This document shows, one piece after another, positions 3,364 through 55,741 of a stretch of DNA of 64,000 bases (positions are counted from its first letter, which is position 1; each line of letters opens with the position of its first letter). This stretch comes from Ruegeria denitrificans (GTDB lineage: Bacteria > Pseudomonadota > Alphaproteobacteria > Rhodobacterales > Rhodobacteraceae). A model generated the notes under the pieces. It was not told the origin of the DNA and did no database searches. It saw nothing but the letters and a program-made list of their open reading frames with translations. Made by a program: the position numbers and the translations under genes. The stretch lies in NCBI RefSeq assembly GCF_001458295.1, contig NZ_CYUD01000011.1:1-64000 (forward strand), in the 5' to 3' direction.

Positions 3364-3503
3364 CAGTGCAAGCTCAGGTGTGCCAGACTGGCCTGTTCGC
3401 CTAGGATTATCAGGTGCTTTGCAAGACCGCCAGAACCGTCTGGCGTTGCGGGCGGCAGCAGACACCGGCATAGTGAATTCGGTATTCTGACAATGGACGC
3501 ACC

Positions 3504-4325
3504 ATGCAAGTGATTGGCCTTTGCCGCTTTTCTTTCCCGGCCCTTGGCAGTTTTCAGATCGAACATGAAACACTCGAAGAACGGCGCCGTTATCTGTACG
3601 ACCCAAAACGATTGGAAGAGAGGTTTCGCCTCTTTGAATCTTCTACCCTGCCCTGTTTTCGAGAGCATACAGATGAGGACTTCGTGCTGTTAGTGGCGGT
3701 AGGAGAATGCCTGCCTAAATCCGCATTCGATCGGCTGCATGATCTGACGGCTGATATCAAACAGATTCAGATCGTACAGAAATCGGCAGAGACCGACAAA
3801 AAGCACCGCCACATTATGAAGGATATTCTGCACACGGCCCGCACCGATCCGGACCAGCCCTGTCTACAATTCCGACATGACGATGACGATGCTGTTTCCG
3901 TTGATTTTGTAGAGCGCCTCCGCGACGCAGCCGAGGACTGTAAGACGCTTATGAGCCGGAACCACACGGTCGGCATAGATTTCAACAAGGGATTTATCGC
4001 CCGCTTGAATTCGGAAGGGGTACATGTGGCCGAGACCTTCAAATCGCTGATAGGCGTGGGTCTGGGCATGTATGTTTCTGGCGGTTGCAAACATACGATT
4101 TTCAGTTTCGCCCACCACCGTATCGGTCGTTTCATGCCTGTCGTCAGTTATCCGGATGCGCCCATGTGGGTGCGCTCCATGCATACGTCCAACGATTCAT
4201 GGGGTGCCCGCAACAGCAACGAAGAATTACAGCCCCTGACACCCAAACAAGAAGGCGAATTCATCGCTCGTTTTGCGATTGATCAAAATCGTGTCCGTCA
4301 GGTTCACTCGGCAGGTTGGACCTGA
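3504..4325 (+). CDS. Putative glycosyltransferase (rhamnosyltransferase-like family)
   Basis: A 273-residue protein beginning MQVIGLCRFSFPALGSFQ. The overall pattern (N-terminal LCRFSFPALG, then YDPKRLEERFRLFE and a conserved RHDDDDAVSVDFVERL acidic segment that could bind nucleotide sugar and metal) matches the putative rhamnosyltransferase family common in Rhodobacterales. The substrate cannot be read from the sequence. It points away from rpsL and converges on the DMT exporter, overlapping its 3' end by 22 bases (4304-4325). There is no strong Shine-Dalgarno; GGAC lies about 9 bases before the ATG. Family assignment is from memory of the conserved pattern. Confidence 0.7.
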   Translation: MQVIGLCRFSFPALGSFQIEHETLEERRRYLYDPKRLEERFRLFESSTLPCFREHTDEDFVLLVAVGECLPKSAFDRLHDLTADIKQIQIVQKSAETDKKHRHIMKDILHTARTDPDQPCLQFRHDDDDAVSVDFVERLRDAAEDCKTLMSRNHTVGIDFNKGFIARLNSEGVHVAETFKSLIGVGLGMYVSGGCKHTIFSFAHHRIGRFMPVVSYPDAPMWVRSMHTSNDSWGARNSNEELQPLTPKQEGEFIARFAIDQNRVRQVHSAGWT

Positions 4326-14732: not shown

Positions 14733-14866
14733 GTCAGATGTCACCTTTCGATGTTCTCATCGGGCAAAGACACCGTCGGGCCCCGGCGCCTTGCACATTC
14801 GAGACGACACGTTCGGATCAATTCATGGCCACCGTCCCGAAGGCAGCCTCCCGATCCAAGAACCGC

Positions 14867-43957: not shown

Positions 43958-44467
43958 TCAGTTGCCGATGGTCTGCAGATACGCGATCAGATCGGCGCGC
44001 TCCTGCGGTTTTTTCAGGCCAGCAAAGCTCATCGACGTGCCGGAGATATAAGCGCTGGGGCGAGTCAGGAAGGCATCTAGGGCCTCGGGCGTCCAGTTGC
44101 CGCCATGCGCCTGCATTGCCGCCGAATAACCGGTAAATCCCTTGGCCGCAGCGACCGGACGATCCACGACTGCGTACAGATAGGGGCCAGTGCCGTTTGC
44201 GCCATCTTCCAGCTTGTGGCAGGCGGTACATTTGCGGAATACCTTGGCACCCTTTTCGGGATCAGCAGCGGCCAGCATCTCTTCGAATACCACTTCTTCG
44301 CCGTCAGCACTTTCGCCCGAGCTTTCGGTTTCGATGATATAAGAGGCGGTCTCGCCATGGCCATCCGCATGGTAAAGCACCTCGGCGCCCCATTTGGCCA
44401 GAAGCAGCACCAGGAAGGTGCCAAACAGGCCTGCGGCGGCCTTGGTAACTGTCATCGTGTCGAACAT
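43958..44467 (-). CDS. cycM: Membrane-anchored cytochrome c (CycM / c552-like)
   Basis: 169 residues from ATG 44467 (MFDTMTVTKAAAGLFGTFLV), the usual N-terminus in roseobacters; MDTRSMFDTM at 44482 is an alternative. One N-terminal uncleaved helix, an acidic linker (ETESSGESADGEEVVFEEM), then a class I cytochrome c domain with CTACHK and the distal Met in GTSMSFAGL. It carries electrons from bc1 to terminal oxidases while tethered to the membrane. It is divergent from pheA and followed by a strong terminator. Confidence 0.9.
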   Translation of the reverse strand: MFDTMTVTKAAAGLFGTFLVLLLAKWGAEVLYHADGHGETASYIIETESSGESADGEEVVFEEMLAAADPEKGAKVFRKCTACHKLEDGANGTGPYLYAVVDRPVAAAKGFTGYSAAMQAHGGNWTPEALDAFLTRPSAYISGTSMSFAGLKKPQERADLIAYLQTIGN

Positions 44468-44586
44468 TGATCGCGTGTCCATTTCAGCTGTCTGCGGGGT
44501 GTCTAAGGCTTCCCCTTGCAAGAGGCAAGGTATAGACACCGCGACTAAACGCCCAATTCACCAACTTGTTGCACGGAATCGTCCAA

Positions 44587-45420
44587 ATGAGCAATCGTAT
44601 CGCATTTCAGGGAGAACCAGGCGCCTATAGCCACGAGGCCTGCCGCAATGCACGCCCCGATATGGAGGCCCTGCCCTGCCGCACATTCGAAGATGTAATC
44701 GAATCGGTTCGGTCAGGCGAGGCTGATCTGGCGATGTTGCCGGTCGAAAACACCACCTATGGCCGGGTTGCCGATATTCACCGTCTTTTGCCCCATAGTG
44801 GGCTGCACATCATTGATGAGGCCTTCGTGCGCGTGCATATTAACCTGCTGGCCGTCCCAGGTGCTACGCTTGAGGACGTCACCGAGGCGCATTCGCATCT
44901 GGTTCTGCTGCCCCAATGCGCAGGCTTTCTGAAACAACACAACATTCGTGGCCGTGTCAGTCCCGACAATGCGCGTGCCGCGCGTGAGGTCTCGGAACAG
45001 GGTGATCCGCATTCGGCAGCGCTGGCCAGCGAGCTGGCAGGCGAAATCTATGGGCTGAACGTGCTGGCTCGTCACATCGAAGATCAGGATAACAACACCA
45101 CACGATTCCTGGTGATGTCACGGCAGGCGGACATGTCCCGGCGTGGCCCGCACGGCATGATCACCAGCTTCGTGTTTCAGGTACGCAACATTCCGGCGGC
45201 GTTGTACAAAGCGATGGGCGGCTTTGCCACCAATGGCATCAACATGACCAAGCTGGAAAGCTATATGGTCGACGGTTCCTTCACCGCGACCCAGTTTTAT
45301 GCCGATATCGTCGGACACCCCGATGATCGCAACGTGCAGCTGGCCATGGAAGAGCTGGAGCATTTCACCACCAATGTCGAAGTGCTGGGCGTTTACCCCG
45401 CGGCGCATCCGCGCGGGTAA
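44587..45420 (+). CDS. pheA: Prephenate dehydratase
   Basis: Converts prephenate to phenylpyruvate in phenylalanine synthesis. 277 residues from ATG 44587 (MSNRIAFQGEPGAYSHEACR). Substrate-site motifs include LPVENTTYGRVAD, HSHLVLLPQC and the catalytic-loop DNNTTRFLVM, followed by an ACT domain (VFQVRNIPAALYKAMGGFAT and INMTKLESYMV) for feedback control by phenylalanine. It is the monofunctional type without chorismate mutase. It converges on the GNAT gene ten bases away. Confidence 0.96.
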   Translation: MSNRIAFQGEPGAYSHEACRNARPDMEALPCRTFEDVIESVRSGEADLAMLPVENTTYGRVADIHRLLPHSGLHIIDEAFVRVHINLLAVPGATLEDVTEAHSHLVLLPQCAGFLKQHNIRGRVSPDNARAAREVSEQGDPHSAALASELAGEIYGLNVLARHIEDQDNNTTRFLVMSRQADMSRRGPHGMITSFVFQVRNIPAALYKAMGGFATNGINMTKLESYMVDGSFTATQFYADIVGHPDDRNVQLAMEELEHFTTNVEVLGVYPAAHPRG

Positions 45421-45430
45421 AGCCTCGGCT

Positions 45431-45898
45431 TCACCCGACAGTATAGGCTTTGCATACAGCCCCCTCGTGGGATCTGTAATCGACAAACCCAATGGCGGTG
45501 TAGTAGGCCAATCCTTCTGCGTTACTTGCCGCAATGGTGGCGTCAATGGCGGGAAGTCCCTGCGCTTTCGCGACCTTCAATGTCGCCTGAAACAGGGCCC
45601 GCCCCACTCCGCAGCGCGCGGCAAAGGGTCGGATATGGGTTCCAATGATCCCCCAGCCAACCTGTACCCCATAAGGATTGTCTGCGACCGCCCGTTTCAT
45701 GGATTGAAACCCCAAAATCCGCTTATCACGGATCGCCACAACACATGTCAGCTGATCCGGGTGCCCAACATAATGAGTGGCTACAAATTCCGGATCGCTC
45801 GGTCTGGTGCGTTTTCCGGCAGCCGGAATTTCCTGCAACACGTCAGAAATGCCCAGGACATCGTCCAGATCGACCGGTCGAATGGTCAGCTTGTCCAT
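45431..45898 (-). CDS. GNAT-family N-acetyltransferase
   Basis: 155 residues. The acetyl-CoA-binding stretch GTHIRPFAARCGVGRALFQATL has the R-x-x-G-x-G/A spacing of motif A, and AYYTAIGFVDYRSHEGAV is motif B. Substrate unknown. It lies 12 bases after the SRPBCC gene on the same strand, so they may be co-transcribed. Confidence 0.85.
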   Translation of the reverse strand: MDKLTIRPVDLDDVLGISDVLQEIPAAGKRTRPSDPEFVATHYVGHPDQLTCVVAIRDKRILGFQSMKRAVADNPYGVQVGWGIIGTHIRPFAARCGVGRALFQATLKVAKAQGLPAIDATIAASNAEGLAYYTAIGFVDYRSHEGAVCKAYTVG

Positions 45899-45910
45899 CG
45901 TCGCCTCAGG

Positions 45911-46378
45911 TCAGGAACCATGCCGATGACGCTCTTCCATCTCTCGGGCGAACTCACTGAGCCGCAGTTGAAATTGCCGGCGGAACCGCGACTGACCCAG
46001 CCTCAGTGACTGAAGCAACAGGCGCGCTGGCAGAGATTTCGCGGCCAGCGACATCTCAACGCTCAGGCGGGTACGGCGCTGCGAAAGGGCCAGAAATTCA
46101 ACAGTTGTTATCCCGTTCATGCCCTTGCTTGCGGCCTGAAACCGCATCATGGCCGGTGGGTCACACTCTGCCATCTCAATCGCAACATGGCGGGGCTTGC
46201 CGCGCAGATTGAACTCAGTTTCCCACTGCGTGCCGGGCACAACGCCCATATGGCCCGACATGCGCCGCACTTCGATCCCACGGCGCATCGCCATGCGTTC
46301 GAACCGCTCAAAATCAGCGACCATTTCGAAAACCGCGTTGATCGGGGCTTCGATATCTTCGCGTGCTGTAAACTGCAT
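45911..46378 (-). CDS. SRPBCC (START-like) family protein
   Basis: 155 residues beginning MQFTAREDIEAPINAVFEMV, the typical first strand and helix of SRPBCC/polyketide-cyclase-like folds, followed by VVPGTQWETEFNLRGKPRHV and a C-terminal long helix. Such proteins bind hydrophobic ligands; the ligand is unknown. It lies 41 bases after nudC and 12 before the GNAT gene. Confidence 0.8.
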   Translation of the reverse strand: MQFTAREDIEAPINAVFEMVADFERFERMAMRRGIEVRRMSGHMGVVPGTQWETEFNLRGKPRHVAIEMAECDPPAMMRFQAASKGMNGITTVEFLALSQRRTRLSVEMSLAAKSLPARLLLQSLRLGQSRFRRQFQLRLSEFAREMEERHRHGS

Positions 46379-46419
46379 CGTGGTTCGTGGGTCTCTTTGT
46401 CTGTCGGCTTATTATTTTG

Positions 46420-47400
46420 TCAGTCCAGCGTATCCGCAAGCCAGTTTTGCAACAGAAAATGCGCAATGGCCCCCTTGCGGGCAGGCAGCAGAACCGGGTG
46501 TTCACCGGCGAAGGCTTGCATCATCTCAGGCTTGCTGACCCACATCGCGTCTTCGATTTCCACCGGGTCAATGGTGATCTCGCGCGACAGCGCCTCACCC
46601 GCGCAACCAAACATCAGCGAGGCCGGGAACGGCCAGGGCTGACTGGACAGGTAACGGACCGGGCCAACGGGCACGCCCGCCTCTTCCATCACCTCGCGCC
46701 GAACCGCAGCCTCAAGCGTTTCTCCGGGCTCCACAAAACCGGCCAACAGCGAATACATCCCCTCGGGCCAGCCCGGAGACCGCCCCATCAGAACCGAATC
46801 CCCATGTGTGATCAGCATGATGACCACAGGATCGGTGCGCGGGAAATGTTGCCCGCTGCATTCAGGGCAACTGCGCTGCCACCCAGCCTGCGAGACTTGG
46901 CTGGGCGCCCCACAGCGAGCGCAGAATCGATGCGATTCGTGCCAGCCGATAACTGCTTTGGCCGCCGCCGCCAGCTCTGCGTCACGAGCAGACAGGCGGG
47001 TCATGATCCGGCGCAACTCGGCAAAGACATGGCCCTGGGGCAGGTCCGGGTGCTGTTGTTCTGACGGATCGACAAAGGCGCCAACCTGCGACAGGTCCAA
47101 CCCGTCAGGGGACCAGTCCGAGATATCCAGCGCAAAGACCGGATCTCCATCCGAAAGGCCCAGAAACACCGGCTCTTCAATACTGCTGCCAGGGCCGTTT
47201 TCCACCAGTCGATGCGTCATGGGAATTAGTCCAAGCCGGTCCAACGCTTCCCCTTGAACCAGCGGCTTGCCGCGCCATAGCAGCAGGCAAGAGGCCAGTG
47301 GGTGGGCCCGCGCCTGCGTCAATTGGTTGGAATCACTTCGAATATGCGCCGCGCGATCCAACCCCGAGCTGCCAAAAGTCACAAGTTCCGCGTGTTTCAT
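46420..47400 (-). CDS. nudC: NAD+ diphosphatase / decapping enzyme NudC
   Basis: 326 residues from ATG 47400 (MKHAELVTFGSSGLDRAAHI), with GGGG seven bases upstream. The zinc ribbon CARCGA...CPEC, the Nudix box GFVEPGETLEAAVRREVMEE (ending EEAG) and the NADH-pyrophosphatase motif SQPWPFPASLM are all present. It hydrolyses NAD(H) and removes NAD caps from RNA. It is divergent from the CpdB-like gene; the AT-rich 175-base gap between them probably holds both promoters, though no clear pair was found. Confidence 0.95.
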   Translation of the reverse strand: MKHAELVTFGSSGLDRAAHIRSDSNQLTQARAHPLASCLLLWRGKPLVQGEALDRLGLIPMTHRLVENGPGSSIEEPVFLGLSDGDPVFALDISDWSPDGLDLSQVGAFVDPSEQQHPDLPQGHVFAELRRIMTRLSARDAELAAAAKAVIGWHESHRFCARCGAPSQVSQAGWQRSCPECSGQHFPRTDPVVIMLITHGDSVLMGRSPGWPEGMYSLLAGFVEPGETLEAAVRREVMEEAGVPVGPVRYLSSQPWPFPASLMFGCAGEALSREITIDPVEIEDAMWVSKPEMMQAFAGEHPVLLPARKGAIAHFLLQNWLADTLD

Positions 47401-47575
47401 AGCAAATCCCCTGGGTCGTCGGCACAGGGCTGCCACGGCTGCCCCTTTGTTGCAATGGCAATTCCTACCGCCCGAAAACCTGAGGCCACCAATTGATCAC
47501 AAGTACACCATACAAGTTGCATATATTATACTTTTTGGGGAAAATGATTAACATATAACCGCCAGAAGTAGAATT

Positions 47576-49456
47576 TTGACACACCCCTCACCTTCGTCCC
47601 GCGCGTCACTGAAGATACGGATTCTGGCAACATCCGATCTGCACATGAATCTTTGTGGCTTCGATTATTATTCAGACACCTCCGACCCCTCGATCGGCTT
47701 TACGCGGACTGCCAACCTGATCCGCGCGGCCCGATCCGAGGCTGACGCGCAGGGTGCTCTAGTGCTGCTGTGCGACAACGGAGATTCGCTGCAGGGCACG
47801 CCTCTGGGGGAATGGGCAGTCGAGCCGGAGAACGCACCGCATATCTTGATGCGGGCTTTTGCAGAGCTGGGCTATGACGCCATTGGGCTAGGCAACCACG
47901 ATTTCGGCCTTGGTCTGGAGACGTTGGATCGCACAATTGCAGATGCAGCCTGCCCAGTGATCTGCAGCAATGCCCATCGTCAAGACGCCGAACCCTCCTG
48001 GCAAGATCATGCAGTCTTTACACGAGCAGCTTGTTACGGTGAACAGCAGGTTGCGCTGAAAATCGGCGTTTTTTCAGTCCTGCCGCCGCAGACGGCTAAA
48101 TGGGAGGGTCACCGACTGCATGGCAAGGTTGTCATGGGTGATATCCTGACATGCGCCGCGCAAAAGGTGACGGATCTAAGAGCGCTTGGCTGCGACCTGG
48201 TGCTTGCGTTGGGACACACGGGACTAGGGCCAACCGAACCACAACCGGATTTGGAAAATGCGATTATCCCTTTGGCCGGGATCGAGGGCATTGATGCCTT
48301 GATTGCCGGGCATTCTCATCTAACACTGCCCGGCAACGCCCATGACGGCGTTGAACATGTCGATGCAAGCCGAGGGCTGGTTCATGGCAAACCAGTGGTC
48401 ATGCCCGGTGCCTTTGGATCCTCTCTTGGGGTGATCGACCTAGCCATCAACAGAACGGAAAACGGTGGCTGGACGGTGCAGGATCATCGCACCAGCCTGC
48501 GGCCGGTATGCCCGTCAAAATCCGGAATGTCTTCAGAACCTGTCGCGGAAGATCCGGATTTGGTGAAGTTGTTCGCCAAAGGGCATTTGGAAATCCGGCG
48601 CCGTACGGCGCAGCCGGTCGGTCAAACCGATCAACATCTGCATAGCTATTTCAGCTTTTGCGCCCCTGATCGGGGGCTTGTTCTGACCGCAGCGGCCCAA
48701 GCTGCCGCGCTACGACCCTTTCTGCAGGACACGCCCTTCGCGGCTTTGCCAGTTCTATCCGCAACCGCGCCCTCAAAGTTCGGAGGGCGGGCCGGTCCAA
48801 GGTTTTTCACCGATGTCCTGCCCGGTCAGATATGCCTGCGCCATGTCAACGATGTGTATGCGTTTCCCAATGAGCTACGGGCAGTGGTCGTGGCCAGAGA
48901 GGAGATTAGCGACTGGCTGGAAATGTCTGCGGCCGTGTTTAATCAGATCATGCCGGGGCAAGAGACCACTTTGATTGATTCCAGTCGGGCAGGGCATAAT
49001 TTCGATATTATTCAGGGGATTACTTATCAAATCGACCTCTCACAGCCATCGCGTTTCGATGCCAGCGGTCGCCTGATTGACCCCGCATATCGACGCATTT
49101 GGAACATCTGCTTTGACGGACACCCCATAGCTGCCGATCAACAATTCGTCGTTGCGTTGAACAATTACCGCGCCAATGGCGGGGGCCACTTTCCCTTTGT
49201 GGACCGGGTCAAACCCATCGCACTGCCTATTCTACCCTTCCAGCGTGTCCTGCGGGACTATCTGTCCGGCGTATTACCACAAGACCCTTTGCATCAAATG
49301 CCTTATCCCTTTGAATTTGCGCCGATACCGGGCGCGACAACACTCCTGCGGACCGGTCCCAAAGCGCGGACCTGCATTGCCGAGCTTAAGAAATATGATC
49401 CTTACGTGGTCGGAGAAGATGATGAGGGGTTTTTGCTGATCCGTTTGACGCTCTGA
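47576..49456 (+). CDS. CpdB-type 2',3'-cyclic-nucleotide phosphodiesterase/5'-nucleotidase
   Basis: 626 residues from a TTG start. No ATG or GTG precedes the first metal motif, so TTG 47576 is the best available. Metallophosphatase residues: ATSDLHMNLCGFDYY, DNGDSLQGTP, GLGNHDFGLG and AGHSHLTLPG; a 5'-nucleotidase C-terminal domain with NNYRANGGGHFPF follows. Unlike E. coli CpdB there is no signal peptide before the first motif (MTHPSPSSRASLKIRILATS), suggesting a cytoplasmic enzyme or a different export route. The weak AGAAG upstream suggests poor translation. Confidence 0.87.
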   Translation: MTHPSPSSRASLKIRILATSDLHMNLCGFDYYSDTSDPSIGFTRTANLIRAARSEADAQGALVLLCDNGDSLQGTPLGEWAVEPENAPHILMRAFAELGYDAIGLGNHDFGLGLETLDRTIADAACPVICSNAHRQDAEPSWQDHAVFTRAACYGEQQVALKIGVFSVLPPQTAKWEGHRLHGKVVMGDILTCAAQKVTDLRALGCDLVLALGHTGLGPTEPQPDLENAIIPLAGIEGIDALIAGHSHLTLPGNAHDGVEHVDASRGLVHGKPVVMPGAFGSSLGVIDLAINRTENGGWTVQDHRTSLRPVCPSKSGMSSEPVAEDPDLVKLFAKGHLEIRRRTAQPVGQTDQHLHSYFSFCAPDRGLVLTAAAQAAALRPFLQDTPFAALPVLSATAPSKFGGRAGPRFFTDVLPGQICLRHVNDVYAFPNELRAVVVAREEISDWLEMSAAVFNQIMPGQETTLIDSSRAGHNFDIIQGITYQIDLSQPSRFDASGRLIDPAYRRIWNICFDGHPIAADQQFVVALNNYRANGGGHFPFVDRVKPIALPILPFQRVLRDYLSGVLPQDPLHQMPYPFEFAPIPGATTLLRTGPKARTCIAELKKYDPYVVGEDDEGFLLIRLTL

Positions 49457-49494
49457 CGGGTTGTGTTTCCTGCGCCTGTTGCCTATATCAAGCC

Positions 49495-49592
49495 CTGAGA
49501 GGTTGGCGCGGGCGAGCGCCTCGCCAACCTGGTCAGGTCCGGAAGGAAGCAGCCACAACGAGCCCCGCTTGGGTCGATGTCCAACCTCTCAC
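49495..49592 (+). ncRNA. ffs: Signal recognition particle RNA (4.5S, small bacterial type)
   Basis: Contains the universal SRP core GGTCAGGTCCGGAAGGAAGC followed by AGCC, with closing helix arms TGAGAGGTTGG and CCAACCTCTCA at the ends, folding into one long hairpin of about 98 nt. It binds Ffh in co-translational targeting. It lies 38 bases after the CpdB-like gene and converges on the hydrolase gene. Confidence 0.96.
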
Positions 49593-49635
49593 TTTAACTT
49601 CCCCATATTGAAATGTTGCGCGCAGGCGAAAAGGT

Positions 49636-50493
49636 CTAAGCAATCAACCGCGGCCAGACCGCCGCGCTGCGCCGGGCGAAAGCACCGATATGGCCAACCT
49701 TGGACAGGCCGAACTCGCCCGGAGAGAGCAAATGACGGTGCGCGTTGGGCCCATACAGATCGGCCAGCCGCCAAACCGCATTCGACGGCACCAGATCGTC
49801 ATCCTCAAAGCTGAACAGATCCACGGGTGTCTCTGACTGTGCCCAGCGGGCCTCGGGCAAGGTCACGCCGATTTCGGGCAGGTAGTTGCGCGGCGCGGTG
49901 CACCAGCGACGCCACTGCCAATAGACGCTGGCCGGCAGGTCCGCCCCGAATCCCAGCGCCTTGCCCGGCAGATAACCCAATGCCTTCACGGCCAGAGGCG
50001 CATGCCCGTACCAGAATAGCAAAGCCAGCGCCCGATAGGGCCAGGGATGGTCCGACACGGTCACCGGCCCGGCACAGACGCAGATCATGCGGTCGATCTG
50101 ATCAATATCCGGTTGAATCGGCCCCAGCATACCGCCGACGGAATGGCCGATGCTCCACTGTTGCGCGTCGGGATATCGCCGCCGCATCTCGGCCCGGGCC
50201 GCAGGCATGTCGATCAAGGCCCAATCCGCCATCGTGGCCCGCGCCGCTTGCAATGGTCCCTTCAGAGAGTGACCAAAATCGCGGTAATCATAAGTCAGAC
50301 AGGCCATGCCGCGCTCTGCAGCCAGCCAGCGCGCAAAATGCTGGTAATAGTCGCGCGGTACTCCGGTAGCGCTGTGGAGCACCACCGCGGCCTGAGGCTC
50401 GGTCACCGGCAGATACAGCCGGGCCGACAGTTGATGCGGACCGGAAGGAAACCGAATATCCTCGGTCAGAACGGCTTGTGCGGTGTCCAGCAT
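49636..50493 (-). CDS. Alpha/beta hydrolase
   Basis: 285 residues. The nucleophile elbow is IGHSVGGMLG (Ser near residue 116), with an oxyanion-type HSATGVPRDYY segment near residue 40 and a likely catalytic His near the C-terminus in KVGHIGAF. It resembles serine-aminopeptidase-type or YheT-like hydrolases; substrate unknown. It points toward ffs. Confidence 0.8.
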   Translation of the reverse strand: MLDTAQAVLTEDIRFPSGPHQLSARLYLPVTEPQAAVVLHSATGVPRDYYQHFARWLAAERGMACLTYDYRDFGHSLKGPLQAARATMADWALIDMPAARAEMRRRYPDAQQWSIGHSVGGMLGPIQPDIDQIDRMICVCAGPVTVSDHPWPYRALALLFWYGHAPLAVKALGYLPGKALGFGADLPASVYWQWRRWCTAPRNYLPEIGVTLPEARWAQSETPVDLFSFEDDDLVPSNAVWRLADLYGPNAHRHLLSPGEFGLSKVGHIGAFARRSAAVWPRLIA

Positions 50494-50639
50494 GGCGCCC
50501 TCAATCTGAACTGATCAGTTCACCACTCAAACGGCCTTGTTTGCTGCCCTAAGTCAATCCCGTTTTAGCATGACCATGCGTCCACTTTCCCGGTCAAAAG
50601 GCCGCTTGACTCAGGTCACCTCGACCCGCTAGCGATTGG

Positions 50640-50832
50640 GTGATGGTTCTCGTCCCCGGTTCCGGGGCGGGATGAAAAGGGAACACGGTGCGGTCCTTCT
50701 CGGGAAACCGGAACGGACCAAGGCCGCGACTGCCCCCGCAACTGTAAGCGGTGAGCAATGCCGAAACGCCACTGGCCGCAAGGCTGGGAAGGTCGGCAAA
50801 GCAACGACCCGCAAGTCAGGAGACCTGCCATC
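50640..50832 (+). promoter_or_regulatory. Cobalamin (B12) riboswitch
   Basis: Characteristic blocks in order: a 5' P1-P2 region, GACTGCCCCCGCAACTGTA with AGCGG, GCCACTGG near a CTGGGAAGG element, and the B12 box AGTCAGGAGACCTGCC at 50814-50829. These are the conserved cores of the adenosylcobalamin riboswitch, lying on the plus strand about 100 bases before the 50930 start. B12 binding normally turns expression off. Confidence 0.93.
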
Positions 50833-50929
50833 AAACCAAAACCGAAACTCGGGCGGGGTGTCCGGGCAGGTCGTCAGCACGCTGTCACACCTGATCCATG
50901 CCCCTCGTCCCACGCGCGGAGGGCGCAAA

Positions 50930-51337
50930 ATGATCTGGAAGACAAAGACGCACCAATTTACCGCAACTGTGTGTCAGAAAACCGGCAAAACCTGCCCCGC
51001 TCTGGCGCAGATGGCGCGCGCCATCGTACAGGCGATGGATGCCGCCGTTCCTGCGACAACGCCTGATTTTGAATTCGACGGGAACAGTGAGCTGGCCTAT
51101 TGCGCGCAAGGCTGCAGAGCACGGTTTCGCGCGCAGAAAGACCTGATCCGGGTCTTTTGCGGCACCGGCGATGAAACGTCACTCGAGTCGCTGGACGATT
51201 ATGCGGATATGATGTTTGGACCTGACGTGATCATTCGCCCGGCAGGCATACTAACCACTCTGCCCTGCGCGATGCTTGAGGTCACTAAGCTTCAACCCAT
51301 CGCAGTGGCACAGCCACAGCAGCAAGTGGCGCTCTGA
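50930..51337 (+). CDS. B12-riboswitch-controlled Cys-rich protein, unrecognised
   Basis: 135 residues from ATG 50930 (MIWKTKTHQFTATVCQKTGK), with GGAGGG six bases upstream. Six Cys occur: 15, 22, 58, 62, 77 and about 114, in VCQKTGKTC, YCAQGCRARF, VFCGTGDE and LPCAML. The spacing and the FRAQKDLIRVFCGTGDE segment recall thioredoxin-like [2Fe-2S] ferredoxins (the DUF1636 type of putative metal-binding protein linked to cobalamin genes), but I cannot confirm this. The riboswitch implies a job in cobalamin synthesis, cobalt handling or a B12-independent alternative. It stands alone, ending one base before a converging phosphatase gene. Confidence 0.7.
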   Translation: MIWKTKTHQFTATVCQKTGKTCPALAQMARAIVQAMDAAVPATTPDFEFDGNSELAYCAQGCRARFRAQKDLIRVFCGTGDETSLESLDDYADMMFGPDVIIRPAGILTTLPCAMLEVTKLQPIAVAQPQQQVAL

Positions 51338-51338
51338 T

Positions 51339-51833
51339 CTAGCTGCTCGACTGAGGGAAGGTGGCCCAATCCATCTGGCCCTCGGTTTCGACAGCACAGG
51401 GCCGTACCGCACGCAATCGGCTCAACGCCGTCTCTGGTAATTCGCCATTCTCGACCATTAGGCGCAAAACAATCATCCCGGACCGGCCACAGCCGCCCCT
51501 GCAATGCACCAGCACCCGCCCCGCACGAGACAAGATACGCGTGGCCGTTGCGCTGACCTTAATCCACGCGACGTCGGTCGCAGGGGACGGCGCTCCAAAA
51601 TCCGCGACTGGTAAATGCGCCCATTCGATATTGTGCGCGCGCAGGTCATCGCCCAAACCGCCAGCGCCCTCTTGCAGAATTTCAACCCCGGTGGTCATCG
51701 AGATCACAAGATCCGGCTGCCAATCGCGAATGATACCCAAATCGCGCACGTACCCACCACTTCGTCCCGGCAGCGGCGACAGGGCAACAGTGCCGTTTCC
51801 TACGGGCAAAGCGTAAATTGCAAACTGAACCAT
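51339..51833 (-). CDS. Protein-tyrosine/dual-specificity-type phosphatase
   Basis: 164 residues from ATG 51833 (MVQFAIYALPVGNGTVALSP), with AAGGAGG at good spacing; longer in-frame extensions lack it. The P-loop VHCRGGCGRSGM fits CX5R(S/T), and an Asp in LPVADFGAPSP may be the general acid. It resembles small cyclin-dependent-kinase-inhibitor-3-like or dual-specificity phosphatases. The substrate is unknown; the gene is divergent from dnaX. Confidence 0.82.
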   Translation of the reverse strand: MVQFAIYALPVGNGTVALSPLPGRSGGYVRDLGIIRDWQPDLVISMTTGVEILQEGAGGLGDDLRAHNIEWAHLPVADFGAPSPATDVAWIKVSATATRILSRAGRVLVHCRGGCGRSGMIVLRLMVENGELPETALSRLRAVRPCAVETEGQMDWATFPQSSS

Positions 51834-51966
51834 GCCGCGTCCTCCTTGGGCATCGCTTGTAAAACGCGCAATCTGCCCTGCAAACCGAAATTCACTCAAG
51901 CCTGCTGTGGACGCGGGCGGCGGGGGTCTCTACGCTGCATCGGAACCCGAATCCGACAGAGCAGAC

Positions 51967-53727
51967 ATGAACGACACGCCCAGCCCCGCCTATCAGGTTC
52001 TCGCCCGAAAATATCGCCCGGAAACCTTTGCCGACCTTGTGGGTCAGGACGCGATGGTGCGCACGCTGAAAAACGCGTTCGAAGCCGACCGGATCGCGCA
52101 GGCTTTCATCATGACCGGCATCCGCGGCACCGGGAAAACCACCACGGCGCGGATCATCGCCAAGGGCATGAACTGCATCGGTCCGGATGGTGAAGGCAAG
52201 CCAACGACTGAGCCCTGCGGCCAGTGCGAACATTGCGTGGCCATTATGGAAGGCCGCCATGTCGACGTGATGGAGATGGATGCCGCCAGTCGGACCGGCG
52301 TCAACGATATCCGCGAGATCATCGACAGCGTCCGCTATCGTGCCGCCAGCGCGCGCTACAAGATCTACATCATCGACGAGGTCCACATGCTGTCGACCAG
52401 TGCGTTCAACGCGCTGCTCAAGACGCTTGAGGAACCGCCCGAGCATGTGAAGTTCATCTTTGCCACCACCGAGATTCGCAAAGTGCCGGTCACGGTGCTG
52501 TCGCGCTGTCAACGGTTCGACCTGCGTCGGATCGAACCCGAGGACATGATCGGCCTGCTCAACAAGATTGCGTTAGCCGAGAATGCTCAGATCGCCGATG
52601 ACGCGCTGGCGCTGATCACCCGCGCGGCCGAAGGCTCGGCCCGGGACGCGACCTCGCTGCTGGATCAGGCGATCAGCCACGGAGCAGGCGAAACCAGCGC
52701 TGATCAGGTGCGAGCAATGCTGGGCCTGGCTGATCGCGGACGGGTGCTGGATCTGATGGACATGATCCTGCGCGGTGACGCAGCGGGCGCACTGACCGAG
52801 TTGGGCGGGCAATATGCCGAAGGCGCCGACCCATTGGCTGTGCTGCGCGACCTGGCCGAGATCACCCATTGGGTATCCGTTGTTAAAATCACGCCCGATG
52901 CAGCCGACGACCCCACCGTTTCACCGGACGAACGGTCGCGCGGTCAACAGTTGGCCGAGGCGTTGCCGATGCGTGTCCTGACGCGAATGTGGCAGATGCT
53001 GCTAAAGGCACTCGAAGAGGTCTCGGCGGCCCCGAATGCCATGATGGCAGCCGAGATGGCGGTGATCCGCCTGACCCACGTGGCCGACCTGCCCAGCCCG
53101 GAAGAGCTGATCAAACGATTGCAGGACACGCCTCCGGGTCCGCCAATTGGCGGACCCGGAGGCGGAATTCCGGCGCCCTCGCATGCCGCAGTTCAGACGC
53201 AGGCACCAGTGGCCACTTCTTACGCAGCGCCGGCCCATAGCGGAGGCGGTGGACCCAGCGCAGCTTTGGCACAAGACGTACAGGCTGCGCTGGCACGTTA
53301 TCCGACCTTTGACCACGTGGTCGAACTGATCCGTGCAAACCGCGATGGCGTATTGCTGGACGAGGTCAAACGTTCCTTGCGGCTGGTGGCCTACCAGCCC
53401 GGACGCATCGAATTTCAGCCGACCGAGCGTGCCTCAGCGCAGTTGCCACAACGTCTGGGAACTGCGCTACAGCGATGGACCGGCAACCGCTGGGCCGTGA
53501 CAGTCGTTAACGAAGGCGGTGGCGAAACGATCTATGAAAAGGAAAACGCGGTTGAGGAAGCGCTGAAGGCCGAAGCCAGGGAACATCCGCTGGTGCAGGC
53601 CGTTCTGGCCCAGTTCCCCAAGGCGCGGATCAAAAGTATCGAAACGCCAGAACAGCGTGCGGCCAAGATCGAAACCGAAGCCCTGCCCGAAGTCGAAGAC
53701 GAATGGGACCCGTTCGAGGAGGGCTGA
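51967..53727 (+). CDS. dnaX: DNA polymerase III subunits tau/gamma
   Basis: Clamp-loader ATPase, 586 residues from ATG 51967 (MNDTPSPAYQVLARKYRPET). Walker A GIRGTGKTT, zinc-binding Cys in CGQCEHC, the DEVH box (IYIIDEVHMLSTSAFNALLK) and the SRC motif VLSRCQRFDLRR are all in place. The Pro/Gly-rich linker (PPGPPIGGPGGGIPAP, about residues 395-425) leads to the tau domain. No obvious A-rich frameshift site for a separate gamma was noticed. ybaB and recR follow. Confidence 0.96.
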   Translation: MNDTPSPAYQVLARKYRPETFADLVGQDAMVRTLKNAFEADRIAQAFIMTGIRGTGKTTTARIIAKGMNCIGPDGEGKPTTEPCGQCEHCVAIMEGRHVDVMEMDAASRTGVNDIREIIDSVRYRAASARYKIYIIDEVHMLSTSAFNALLKTLEEPPEHVKFIFATTEIRKVPVTVLSRCQRFDLRRIEPEDMIGLLNKIALAENAQIADDALALITRAAEGSARDATSLLDQAISHGAGETSADQVRAMLGLADRGRVLDLMDMILRGDAAGALTELGGQYAEGADPLAVLRDLAEITHWVSVVKITPDAADDPTVSPDERSRGQQLAEALPMRVLTRMWQMLLKALEEVSAAPNAMMAAEMAVIRLTHVADLPSPEELIKRLQDTPPGPPIGGPGGGIPAPSHAAVQTQAPVATSYAAPAHSGGGGPSAALAQDVQAALARYPTFDHVVELIRANRDGVLLDEVKRSLRLVAYQPGRIEFQPTERASAQLPQRLGTALQRWTGNRWAVTVVNEGGGETIYEKENAVEEALKAEAREHPLVQAVLAQFPKARIKSIETPEQRAAKIETEALPEVEDEWDPFEEG

Positions 53728-53929
53728 GCTACATCCGACTACAAACCGAAACACTCCCGCGCCTGCCACGGGGCCATCGGCTGACGCCGACACTCCTGAG
53801 CGGGCTTGGACCCAACGGAAGGAAAGGTCTTGTCAAGGATCTTGATGACGGGCGGAAGGACCCTCGCCACTTGTACCTCGCCTGTACCACCCGTATTTAG
53901 GCGACAAAGTGATACATAGGAGAATACCG

Positions 53930-54274
53930 ATGCTCAAAGGACTCGGCGGTCTGGGCGACATGGCCAAGATGATGAAATCCGCGCAGGACTTGCAGGCCAA
54001 GATGACGGATATGCAAGAAGAGCTGAACAACATGATGGTTGTCGGCGAATCTGGTGCCGGGCTGGTTAAGGCCACCGCTACCGCGAAAGGTGAGCTGAAA
54101 GGTCTGGACATCGACCCGTCGATCTTCAACGGTGACGACAAGGAAGTGGTCGAGGACTTGATCCTGGCCGCCATCAAGGACGCTCAGACCAAAGCGACTG
54201 AACGCGCACAGGCCGAAATGGGAAAGCTGACCGAAAGCATGGGCCTGCCCGCAGACATCAAGCTGCCATTCTGA
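53930..54274 (+). CDS. ybaB: Nucleoid-associated protein YbaB/EbfC
   Basis: 114 residues from ATG 53930 (MLKGLGGLGDMAKMMKSAQD), with AGGAGA seven bases upstream. The QAKMTDMQEELNNMMVVGES helix-strand and the acidic DDKEVVEDLILAAIKDA helix are typical. It binds DNA as a dimer and sits between dnaX and recR as in most bacteria. The 200-base gap from dnaX shows no gene. Confidence 0.95.
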   Translation: MLKGLGGLGDMAKMMKSAQDLQAKMTDMQEELNNMMVVGESGAGLVKATATAKGELKGLDIDPSIFNGDDKEVVEDLILAAIKDAQTKATERAQAEMGKLTESMGLPADIKLPF

Positions 54275-54338
54275 TACACCCTCCTGACGGATCATCGGCC
54301 GGGCGCCCCTGCTCGGCCCATATGCAGGAACGCGCCCG

Positions 54339-54932
54339 GTGAGTTCGAACAGCGATATCGACAACCTAATCGACCTGATGGCCAAGCTGCCCGGCCTCGG
54401 CCCTCGCTCGGCCCGCCGCGCCGTGCTGCACCTGATCCGCAAACGCGCCCTGCTGCTGACGCCCCTATCGGACACCATGCAGCAGGTTGCCGTTACCGCC
54501 CGCGAATGCCTGAACTGCGGCAATGTGGGCACCACCGATATCTGTGACATCTGCGACAACGAGGACCGTGCGACCGGAGAGCTGTGCGTGGTCGAAGACG
54601 TCGCCGACCTGTGGGCAATGGAGCGCGCGGGCGTGTTCAAAGGCCGCTATCACGTTTTGGGCGGCACATTGTCGGCGCTGGACGGGGTCGGGCCGGATGA
54701 ATTGCGCATCCCCCGCCTCAAAGACCGCGTGACAGCCGAAGGGATCACCGAGATCATCCTCGCCCTGAACGCCACCGTCGACGGCCAGACCACCGCCCAT
54801 TACATCGCCGATCAGTTGGAGGGGCACGTCCGCCTGACCTCACTGGCGCAGGGCGTGCCGATTGGTGGAGAGCTGGATTATCTGGACGACGGGACGATTA
54901 CGGCAGCGTTGCGGGCGCGGAAGGAATTGTAA
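54339..54932 (+). CDS. recR: Recombination mediator RecR
   Basis: 197 residues from GTG 54339, with CAGGAA eleven bases upstream. Helix-hairpin-helix [18 protein letters not shown], zinc finger CLNCGN...CDICDN and a Toprim domain ([32 protein letters not shown]) are present. It works with RecO in RecF-pathway loading of RecA. It is the third gene of dnaX-ybaB-recR. Confidence 0.96.
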
Positions 54933-55003
54933 ACCTTTACTCTTTCATTCCATTCAATTAACCCCGATCCGACTTAAAACCACCGAAAACCAAGGCACTA
55001 TTA

Positions 55004-55741
55004 TTGTACAAACTCGCATTTCACGTATTTCGTATTTATTGGCTGCCGGTATTGTTTGCATCAGCGCTCTTGTTTTTACTGGATATCTGGGGACAAGGAA
55101 GTATTGGTCGATCTCTTGTGCCAACACTAATGGTATATGGCTACTTAGCGTTCGCATTTCATTACACACTGCTCACCGGAGCCACCACTTCGGTGTTCAA
55201 AATTTCGAGCCAAACCCCTTCTCCGAATTGGAGCTTCTGGGTCGCATTTATTCTTCCGATTTTCATCTTGCTTTTGGCGATGGTTAGCACCTTTTTCATT
55301 ATCAAAGCCAAACTGCCAGCTGAGGCGCTTTCTGGAGACGCTGCACTGGGGTTCGCCATGCTCGTTTCACTTCCGTTGTTTGGCCTGTTACTCGCCGCAA
55401 TCGGAACAATGATACCGGCTGCAGCGATCCAGGCTTCAACGGGTGTTCGCCCTGCTTTGAAGCGAGCGCGGAGAAGCTTCTGGTTTATTCTTTGGAGGCT
55501 TATAACTGGCCCCACGGTTTTTACTTTGGTTTTTGTGGGCGTTGCCTTTACGATGACTCAAAATGGCCTTGACTCAACTGTTCCAGAAACGTTCGCAGGG
55601 ATCACATTTTCAAATGCCACGTACCACACGGTGGCTGGGTTTCTAGGAATATTCAACACTGCCCTTACTGCCTCCATCTTTTCTATGGCGTATACGAGGG
55701 TCGAAGAAGGTAGAAAACTGCAGCCATCATCCAGAACCTAA
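55004..55741 (+). CDS. Predicted integral membrane protein, unrecognised
   Basis: 245 residues from a TTG start with AAGG eight bases upstream. Five or six transmembrane helices are visible (e.g. YWLPVLFASALLFLLDIWG, FWVAFILPIFILLLAMVST, ALGFAMLVSLPLFGLLLAA). The ALKRARRSFWFILWRLITG segment between helices is basic. I recognise no family with confidence. Codon and base use are clearly more AT-rich than recR before it and the genes after it, suggesting a separate origin. Confidence 0.6.
   Translation: MYKLAFHVFRIYWLPVLFASALLFLLDIWGQGSIGRSLVPTLMVYGYLAFAFHYTLLTGATTSVFKISSQTPSPNWSFWVAFILPIFILLLAMVSTFFIIKAKLPAEALSGDAALGFAMLVSLPLFGLLLAAIGTMIPAAAIQASTGVRPALKRARRSFWFILWRLITGPTVFTLVFVGVAFTMTQNGLDSTVPETFAGITFSNATYHTVAGFLGIFNTALTASIFSMAYTRVEEGRKLQPSSRT

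Follow-up and report, generated by a model that had tools for sequence, protein, structure and literature searches.

The window, a stretch of 64,000 nucleotides from Ruegeria denitrificans, carries a complete cobalamin riboswitch in front of a single gene for a 135-residue cysteine-rich protein. This protein is a distinct, conserved, stand-alone variant, yet it is not without kin: profile comparison marks it as a remote and strongly diverged relative of DUF1636, to which it is connected through graded intermediates. There is about an even chance that it is a B12-repressed, DUF1636-derived, stand-alone cytosolic metal or redox protein for corrinoid or cobalt supply, likely an Fe-S electron carrier. 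The locus consists of the following features.

49636–50493, minus strand: alpha/beta hydrolase gene, upstream and divergent (Pfam PF00561).
50627–50846, plus strand: cobalamin riboswitch aptamer RF00174, complete (cmscan and whole-genome search).
50847–50929, plus strand: leader from the aptamer to the start codon, the presumed expression platform (alignment of 26 of the 54 Ruegeria leaders).
50914–50926, plus strand: hairpin GCGC-GGAGG-GCGC, whose loop contains the Shine-Dalgarno sequence (leader alignment), putatively regulatory.
50930–51337, plus strand: gene for the 135-residue Cys-rich protein, a remote relative of DUF1636 (open reading frame, profile comparison and tree).
51339–51833, minus strand: dual-specificity-phosphatase-like gene, downstream and convergent (PF22784 above the cut-off, PF00782 below it).

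The aptamer matches RF00174 over the full model (positions 1–189 of 189) at 126.4 bits, where the gathering threshold is 31.5, and with an E value of 2.3e-31, which bears out the initial annotation of a complete B12 riboswitch core before the 135-residue protein. It ends 83 bases ahead of the ATG. A possible 4-pair GCGC-GGAGG-GCGC hairpin is kept in all 26 of the aligned leaders, with one compensatory change (GUGC..GCAC), and a scan of the plus strand of the leader found no terminator-like site. The Shine-Dalgarno hairpin and the absence of a plus-strand terminator are compatible with translational control. No switching mechanism is claimed for the leader, because the folding of the window's 146-nt leader is only slightly better than that of shuffled sequences (z -1.37, with 20 of 200 shuffles equally good) and compensatory changes are seen in only 4 of the 29 predicted leader pairs.

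In two further sets of Ruegeria loci examined with cmscan, the riboswitch was present in 20 of 20 and in 17 of 17. By pattern, a B12 box is present in 53 of the 54 Ruegeria loci, and the remaining one (L039), which has a mispicked start, is positive by cmscan. A total of 67 relatives from other genera were read out, these being about the strongest matches of the A1 and A3 profile searches described below. Their loci contain the riboswitch in 64 cases, those without it being L163, L198, and L200, and the pattern places a B12 box 62–168 bases upstream of the start on the same strand, likewise in 64 of 67. Two cobalamin riboswitches are present in L150, at 2746–2939 and 3443–3645 on the minus strand, flanking the Cys-protein gene on either side.

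The open reading frame begins with the ATG at 50930, with GGAGG ahead of it, and ends at 51337. Its six cysteines lie at residues 15, 22, 58, 62, 77, and 113; the pairs that had been pointed out earlier (CxxxxxxC and CxxxC) are those at 15/22 and 58/62, to which 77 and 113 are added. Searched as a single sequence, the protein matches no Pfam or NCBIfam family at E values up to 10, has no match in PHROGs, and has two matches only among PDB sequences, both with E above 1. Both flanking genes are on the opposite strand, therefore the Cys-protein gene looks monocistronic. Beyond the phosphatase and hydrolase genes, Pfam identifies dnaX, YbaB, RecR, and one open reading frame without a family on one side, and metallophosphatase/nucleotidase, NUDIX, polyketide-cyclase-like, GNAT, prephenate dehydratase, and cytochrome c genes on the other. 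The gene had been described as a lone one without adjoining cob, btu, or metE genes, and indeed no cob, btu, or met genes are present among the 12 neighbouring open reading frames scanned (43958–55741).

Every one of the 54 genus genomes searched, most of them Ruegeria, encodes the protein, and the other 53 copies show 45–83% identity to that of the window. The named matches are almost all Ruegeria (47 loci), and a single-sequence search gave no hit to the protein in any of the 47 further genera sampled alongside the genus. Among 156 genus pairs with pS below 0.6 the median dN/dS is 0.24 and the maximum 0.68, while 20 residues are invariant across 48 sequences. The open reading frame is a real gene. 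The phosphatase gene and dnaX adjoin it in every one of the 54 Ruegeria loci, and the same holds for 11 of the 27 loci from other genera whose protein lacks Cys54 (numbered as in the alignment below). A role in B12 supply is implied by the lone gene, the complete riboswitch, and the genus-wide conservation, in keeping with the defined B12 role proposed at the outset.

Profile searches extend the group further. A profile of 46 of the 54 genus members (A1) picks up relatives from 33 further genera of the family, and from at least 35 of 394 genomes overall. The wider profile A3, made from 32 of the 33 fetched places in other genera (without L148) and 9 genus rows, has matches in at least 200 of the 394 genomes. 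Up to ten candidates per genome were scored in both searches, and the counts of carriers are lower bounds. The weaker A3 matches, at about 30–50 bits, are probably, at a guess, DUF1636 proper. A relative in G402 (L197, 2501–2929, plus strand) has its Cys-rich stretch tandemly duplicated, with CMAGCDRPCTVA occurring twice.

An HMM search against DUF1636, which the initial annotation had put forward as a check, gives a divided answer. The Pfam model (PF07845) misses the 135-residue protein, which stays below the gathering score of 31.6 bits, whereas comparison of profiles finds the relation. With hhalign, the Ruegeria profile aligns to that of 18 DUF1636 rows at 93.5% with a score of 44.5, the best of 60 column shuffles reaching 22.3. 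Against 19 relatives that keep Cys54 the match is 96.8%, with an E value of 2.9e-10 and a score of 62.4, compared to a maximum of 23.6 in 60 shuffles. The DUF1636 alignment (A4) holds 18 of 22 places, with three below the cut-off and L119 omitted, and that of the Cys54-keeping relatives (A6) holds 19 of the 40 loci. PF07845 is matched at E ≤ 0.01 by 18 of the 41 A3 rows. L137 and L139, which are much nearer to the window protein, score 18.2 and 17.0 bits with this model, and L152 at 42 bits is above its cut-off. The earlier view that the protein is not obvious from known families has thus to be revised, as these intermediates link it to DUF1636. By descent it is part of the DUF1636 superfamily, but it is not filed as a member of DUF1636, because the family model and the cysteine motif both failed.

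Cysteines were compared in one MAFFT alignment of 121 relatives (54 from the genus and 67 from others) and 18 DUF1636 rows. The DUF1636 rows have Cys12 (17 of 18, the eighteenth being cut short there), Cys15, Cys54 (18 of 18), and Cys58, with Cys62 also present in 14 of 18. Neither Cys12 nor Cys54 occurs in any of the 54 Ruegeria proteins, which lack the CxxC...CxxxC(xxxC) motif. The commonest pattern among the 67 relatives from other genera is the DUF1636 set with the addition of Cys22 (31 of 67). Cys54 is kept by 40 proteins, 39 of which have Cys12 and 32 Cys22, with Cys77 and Cys113 in none of them. Nine proteins have Cys12 without Cys54. In the 72 proteins without Cys12 and Cys54, Cys15 is present in 71, Cys22 in 72, Cys58 in 71, Cys62 in 72, Cys77 in 66, and Cys113 in 64. 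Along the series, Cys12 and Cys54 are lost, Cys15, Cys22, Cys58, and Cys62 are kept, and Cys77 and Cys113 are gained.

A tree was made with the eight cysteine columns blanked and 12 of the 54 Ruegeria rows, omitting DUF_L132, DUF_L127, L154, and L192. It has a clade of 30 rows, made up of the 12 Ruegeria and 18 other-genus rows, all without Cys54, with support of 100/99, and a clade of 76 rows, in which the Cys54-keepers are joined and all of the DUF1636 rows are outside, with support of 96/85, the bootstrap not having settled for either. No clear branching point of the 30-row clade from the Cys54-keeping group is seen in this tree. In a quick tree, also with 12 of 54 Ruegeria rows, the corresponding branch is long, at 0.99 changes per column, and all 15 of the Cys77 proteins from other genera are beyond it. 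One of the 40 Cys54-keepers, L203, falls among DUF1636 there. The exchange of cysteines was not one event, because the quick tree needs 7 changes for Cys12, 3 for Cys54, and 5 for Cys77, and seven proteins without Cys54 are outside the 30-row clade. An independent-pairs test of Cys12 against Cys54 and of Cys54 against Cys77 had too few supported pairs.

The window protein resembles DUF1636 in size and motif order and, in the profile alignment, in the second Cys of the CxxC and the last two of the CxxxCxxxC. DUF1636 as a family occurs together with genes for B12 synthesis and with B12-uptake-like genes, and one DUF1636 gene of the window's genome is likewise behind a cobalamin riboswitch. The window protein differs in being without Cys12 and Cys54, in having Cys22, Cys77, and Cys113, and in being encoded alone beside dnaX.

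The relatives that keep Cys54 are in a different setting. The riboswitch is present in 39 of these 40 loci, and in BLAST clusters an ABC ATPase and a periplasmic binding protein are present in 38 and a permease in 37, nearly all of them downstream of the Cys gene and on the same strand. In L153, the sole locus scanned gene by gene, the transporter genes are directly after the Cys gene and match Pfam ABC_tran, Peripla_BP_2, and FecCD. The best NCBIfam match there is a putative F420-0 transporter, with BtuD, BtuF, and BtuC also matching, all below the cut-off. The transporter is probably of the BtuFCD/FecCD class with a corrinoid as candidate substrate, the class being that of one locus with NCBIfam matches below the cut-off. 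L150, L196, and L202 are without Cys54 yet have all three transporter genes and are seen as intermediates. None of the 40 Cys54-keeping loci has the dnaX-side location.

These relatives, from the same bacterial family, share with the window gene the same riboswitch, the profile match of 96.8%, 25% identity over residues 5–117, and Cys15, Cys58, and Cys62, mostly with Cys22 as well. They differ in having Cys54 and, in 39 of 40, Cys12, in being without Cys77 and Cys113, and in being beside transporter genes, whereas the window gene is alone, flanked by the hydrolase, the phosphatase, and dnaX. A search with the relatives' permease found no match in the window genome, nor in three out of ten further Ruegeria genomes. 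Close copies (at least 69% identity) are found in Cys54-keeping genomes. Four genomes with the dnaX-side gene also have a permease copy (G481, G292, G432, and G167). That the window protein serves a FecCD-class importer in its own organism was rejected, and the transporter link is taken to be ancestral only, because of the missing permease match in its genome. A second permease group, 42–45% identical to the query, is represented by L201, G011, G001, G048, G019, G165, and G320. In G320 a further DUF1636-like gene that has a riboswitch (L201) is no more than 2 kb from this permease.

The whole-genome search found four cobalamin riboswitches in the window's genome. The other three are positioned before a CbtA-like gene, a CbiM-like permease, and a DUF1636 gene with a CobW-like open reading frame, where CbtA, CbiM, and CobW were recognised by eye. 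CobN and the riboswitch-linked DUF1636 share another contig of this genome. The riboswitch before the CbiM-like permease, a 253-residue open reading frame also assigned by eye, is on a contig other than that of the window (L033, 1501–1713). A second DUF1636 copy of 67 bits (L060, 1501–1824), which is without the third Cys of CxxxCxxxC, is no more than 2 kb from the riboswitch that precedes the CbtA-like gene.

CobN is over the cut-off in 24 of the 27 other-genus genomes with a protein lacking Cys54, 23 of 23 Cys54-keeping genomes searched, and 5 of 5 Ruegeria, as well as in 12 of 12 genomes with weak A3 matches only and 6 of 13 without a match. For carriers against those without a match (52 of 55 and 6 of 13), Fisher's test gives p 0.00016, for genomes chosen by the authors and with kinship uncorrected. 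A strict tie to CobN was rejected, as 3 of the 27 genomes with a Cys54-less relative are without CobN.

A solved structure of DUF1636 is present in the PDB as 9jn8 ('ORF378'), which is matched by the DUF1636 profile at E 3e-33, by the Cys54-keeping profile at E 2.4e-12, and by A3 at E 0.02. Our literature search found no publication for 9jn8 'ORF378', no tested function for the DUF1636 family, and recognised no paper on the window protein or on the DUF1636-transporter operon. A relation of DUF1636 to thioredoxin-like ferredoxins, with three of four ligands kept and an extra Cys nearby, has been proposed in an earlier study, which calls Cys9 and Cys55 of the ferredoxin ligands, interior, and highly conserved (PMC4520260). 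The DUF1636 profile has a weak match (E 0.086) to the Aquifex [2Fe-2S] ferredoxin 1F37/1M2A, in which Cys12 aligns with Cys9, Cys54 with Cys55, and Cys58 with a Cys four residues further. By this weak alignment, the equivalents of Cys9 and Cys55 of 1M2A are both absent from the window protein. Without Cys12 and Cys54 the protein therefore does not have a canonical [2Fe-2S] or plain ferredoxin site. By eye, the extra Cys22 might be read as a stand-in for the fourth ligand.

Two AlphaFold2 models, from 48 and 44 sequences, have a mean pLDDT of 86.5 and 91.6 and the predicted order b-b-a-b-b-b-a-b. This order is compatible with that of the thioredoxin-like [2Fe-2S] ferredoxins, which include NuoE. 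Foldseek found no match to either model in the PDB at E ≤ 0.001. With VIA-align the best Z is 6.1 for the first model (78 residues, 3.0 Å, a pseudopilin) and 3.9 for the second, and 9jn8, 1M2A, and the complex I 24-kDa subunits are not among the fold matches listed for either. These results count neither for nor against the thioredoxin-like fold proposed for DUF1636. The window protein differs from the ferredoxins 1M2A/1F37 in the missing cysteines aligned to Cys9 and Cys55.

The favoured explanation starts from what the computations show: a riboswitch, a conserved gene, a remote homology, the relatives' operon, and an exchange of cysteines. From the usual sense of cobalamin riboswitches, synthesis of the 135-residue protein would be shut off when cobalamin is plentiful. 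The protein would act in the cytosol, contributing to corrinoid or cobalt supply. A metal centre, most probably an iron-sulphur cluster, would be bound by Cys15, Cys22, Cys58, and Cys62 with the help of Cys77 and Cys113, and from this centre electrons would be passed to a corrinoid or cobalt intermediate. Since the relatives occur first in riboswitch-transporter operons, the ancestral job was probably the handling of what the transporter imports, and the Ruegeria protein would now act without the transporter that accompanies its less changed relatives. FhuF, a small Cys protein and reductant of metal chelates imported by a FecCD-class transporter, may be comparable, but this likeness is by analogy and no sequence relation to the window protein is seen. 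FhuF-type [2Fe-2S] ferrisiderophore reductases are named in PMC7689651. A more tentative proposal, doubtful as it stands, is that the metal site has moved. Cys12 and Cys54 would have been given up, and Cys15, Cys22, Cys58, and Cys62 with the new Cys77 and Cys113 would form a different centre with a new task, which may for example be the direct reduction or capture of a cobalt or corrinoid intermediate independently of a transporter.

A carrier of cobalt or another metal ion is possible, at appreciably less than even chances. Here Cys15, Cys22, Cys58, and Cys62 would bind Co(II), either for hand-over to CobW or CobN or for protection of the cell during cobalt import of the CbtAB-like or CbiM-like kind, which is also found behind riboswitches. 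The cobalt and cobalamin supply genes behind the other three riboswitches of the genome and the presence of CobN on the contig of DUF1636 are consistent with this, as is the loss of two ligand-like cysteines of the ferredoxin pattern. With no FecCD-type permease match in the genome, it may be that uptake of cobalt, rather than of corrinoid, remains. However, the less changed relatives accompany a transporter of the BtuFCD/FecCD class, the three genomes noted above have a Cys54-less relative without CobN, and a cobalt supplier already exists in CobW, as described in PMC7689651. CobW (COG0523) is similar in serving B12 supply, with a CobW-like open reading frame, assigned by eye, behind another riboswitch of the genome, but its P-loop GTPase domain is absent from the window protein, which has no Pfam match. 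The electron-carrier reading is placed somewhat ahead of the cobalt-carrier reading.

It is unlikely that there is no metal centre and that the cysteines are engaged in disulphides or act as a thiol redox pair, making the protein a thiol reductant or structural partner of a B12 enzyme. The loss of the canonical ligands would fit, as would the absence of Cys77 and Cys113 wherever Cys54 is kept (0 of 40 each) and the thioredoxin-like relation proposed for DUF1636 in PMC4520260. The retention of four cysteines together (Cys15, Cys22, Cys58, and Cys62, each in 71–72 of 72 proteins) nevertheless exceeds the need of a thiol pair. Chance retention of a decaying DUF1636 paralogue with little function left is very improbable. 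Although the branch in the quick tree is long and a few genus pairs have dN/dS up to 0.68, the median is 0.24, the gene and its riboswitch are kept throughout the 54 genus genomes searched, 20 residues are invariant in 48 sequences, and the same phosphatase and dnaX neighbours extend to 11 loci from other genera.

Marine alphaproteobacteria of the Ruegeria kind include producers of vitamin B12 for algae. Support for this is found in part in PMC9870897. The gene occurs in all of the 54 genus genomes searched, and almost all of the relatives read have a B12 riboswitch. This points strongly to a functioning component of B12 supply, and one that none of the curated families searched names. The graded series from DUF1636 provides natural variants with which to test what each cysteine does and how DUF1636 itself functions. 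If the site has moved, this would be a B12-regulated step that the present scheme of aerobic B12 supply does not include.

Other structured RNAs are also present in the window. A bacterial small SRP RNA (49496–49594, plus strand, 57.3 bits) is positioned beyond the hydrolase gene as seen from the riboswitch. Among the Ruegeria loci, an SRP RNA is near the Cys-protein gene in 9 of the 20 short ones and in all 17 of the longer ones, and one is likewise present in L139, L144, L146, and L148. A Rhodo-rpoB RNA is found at 14765–14857 on the minus strand, with 80.8 bits.
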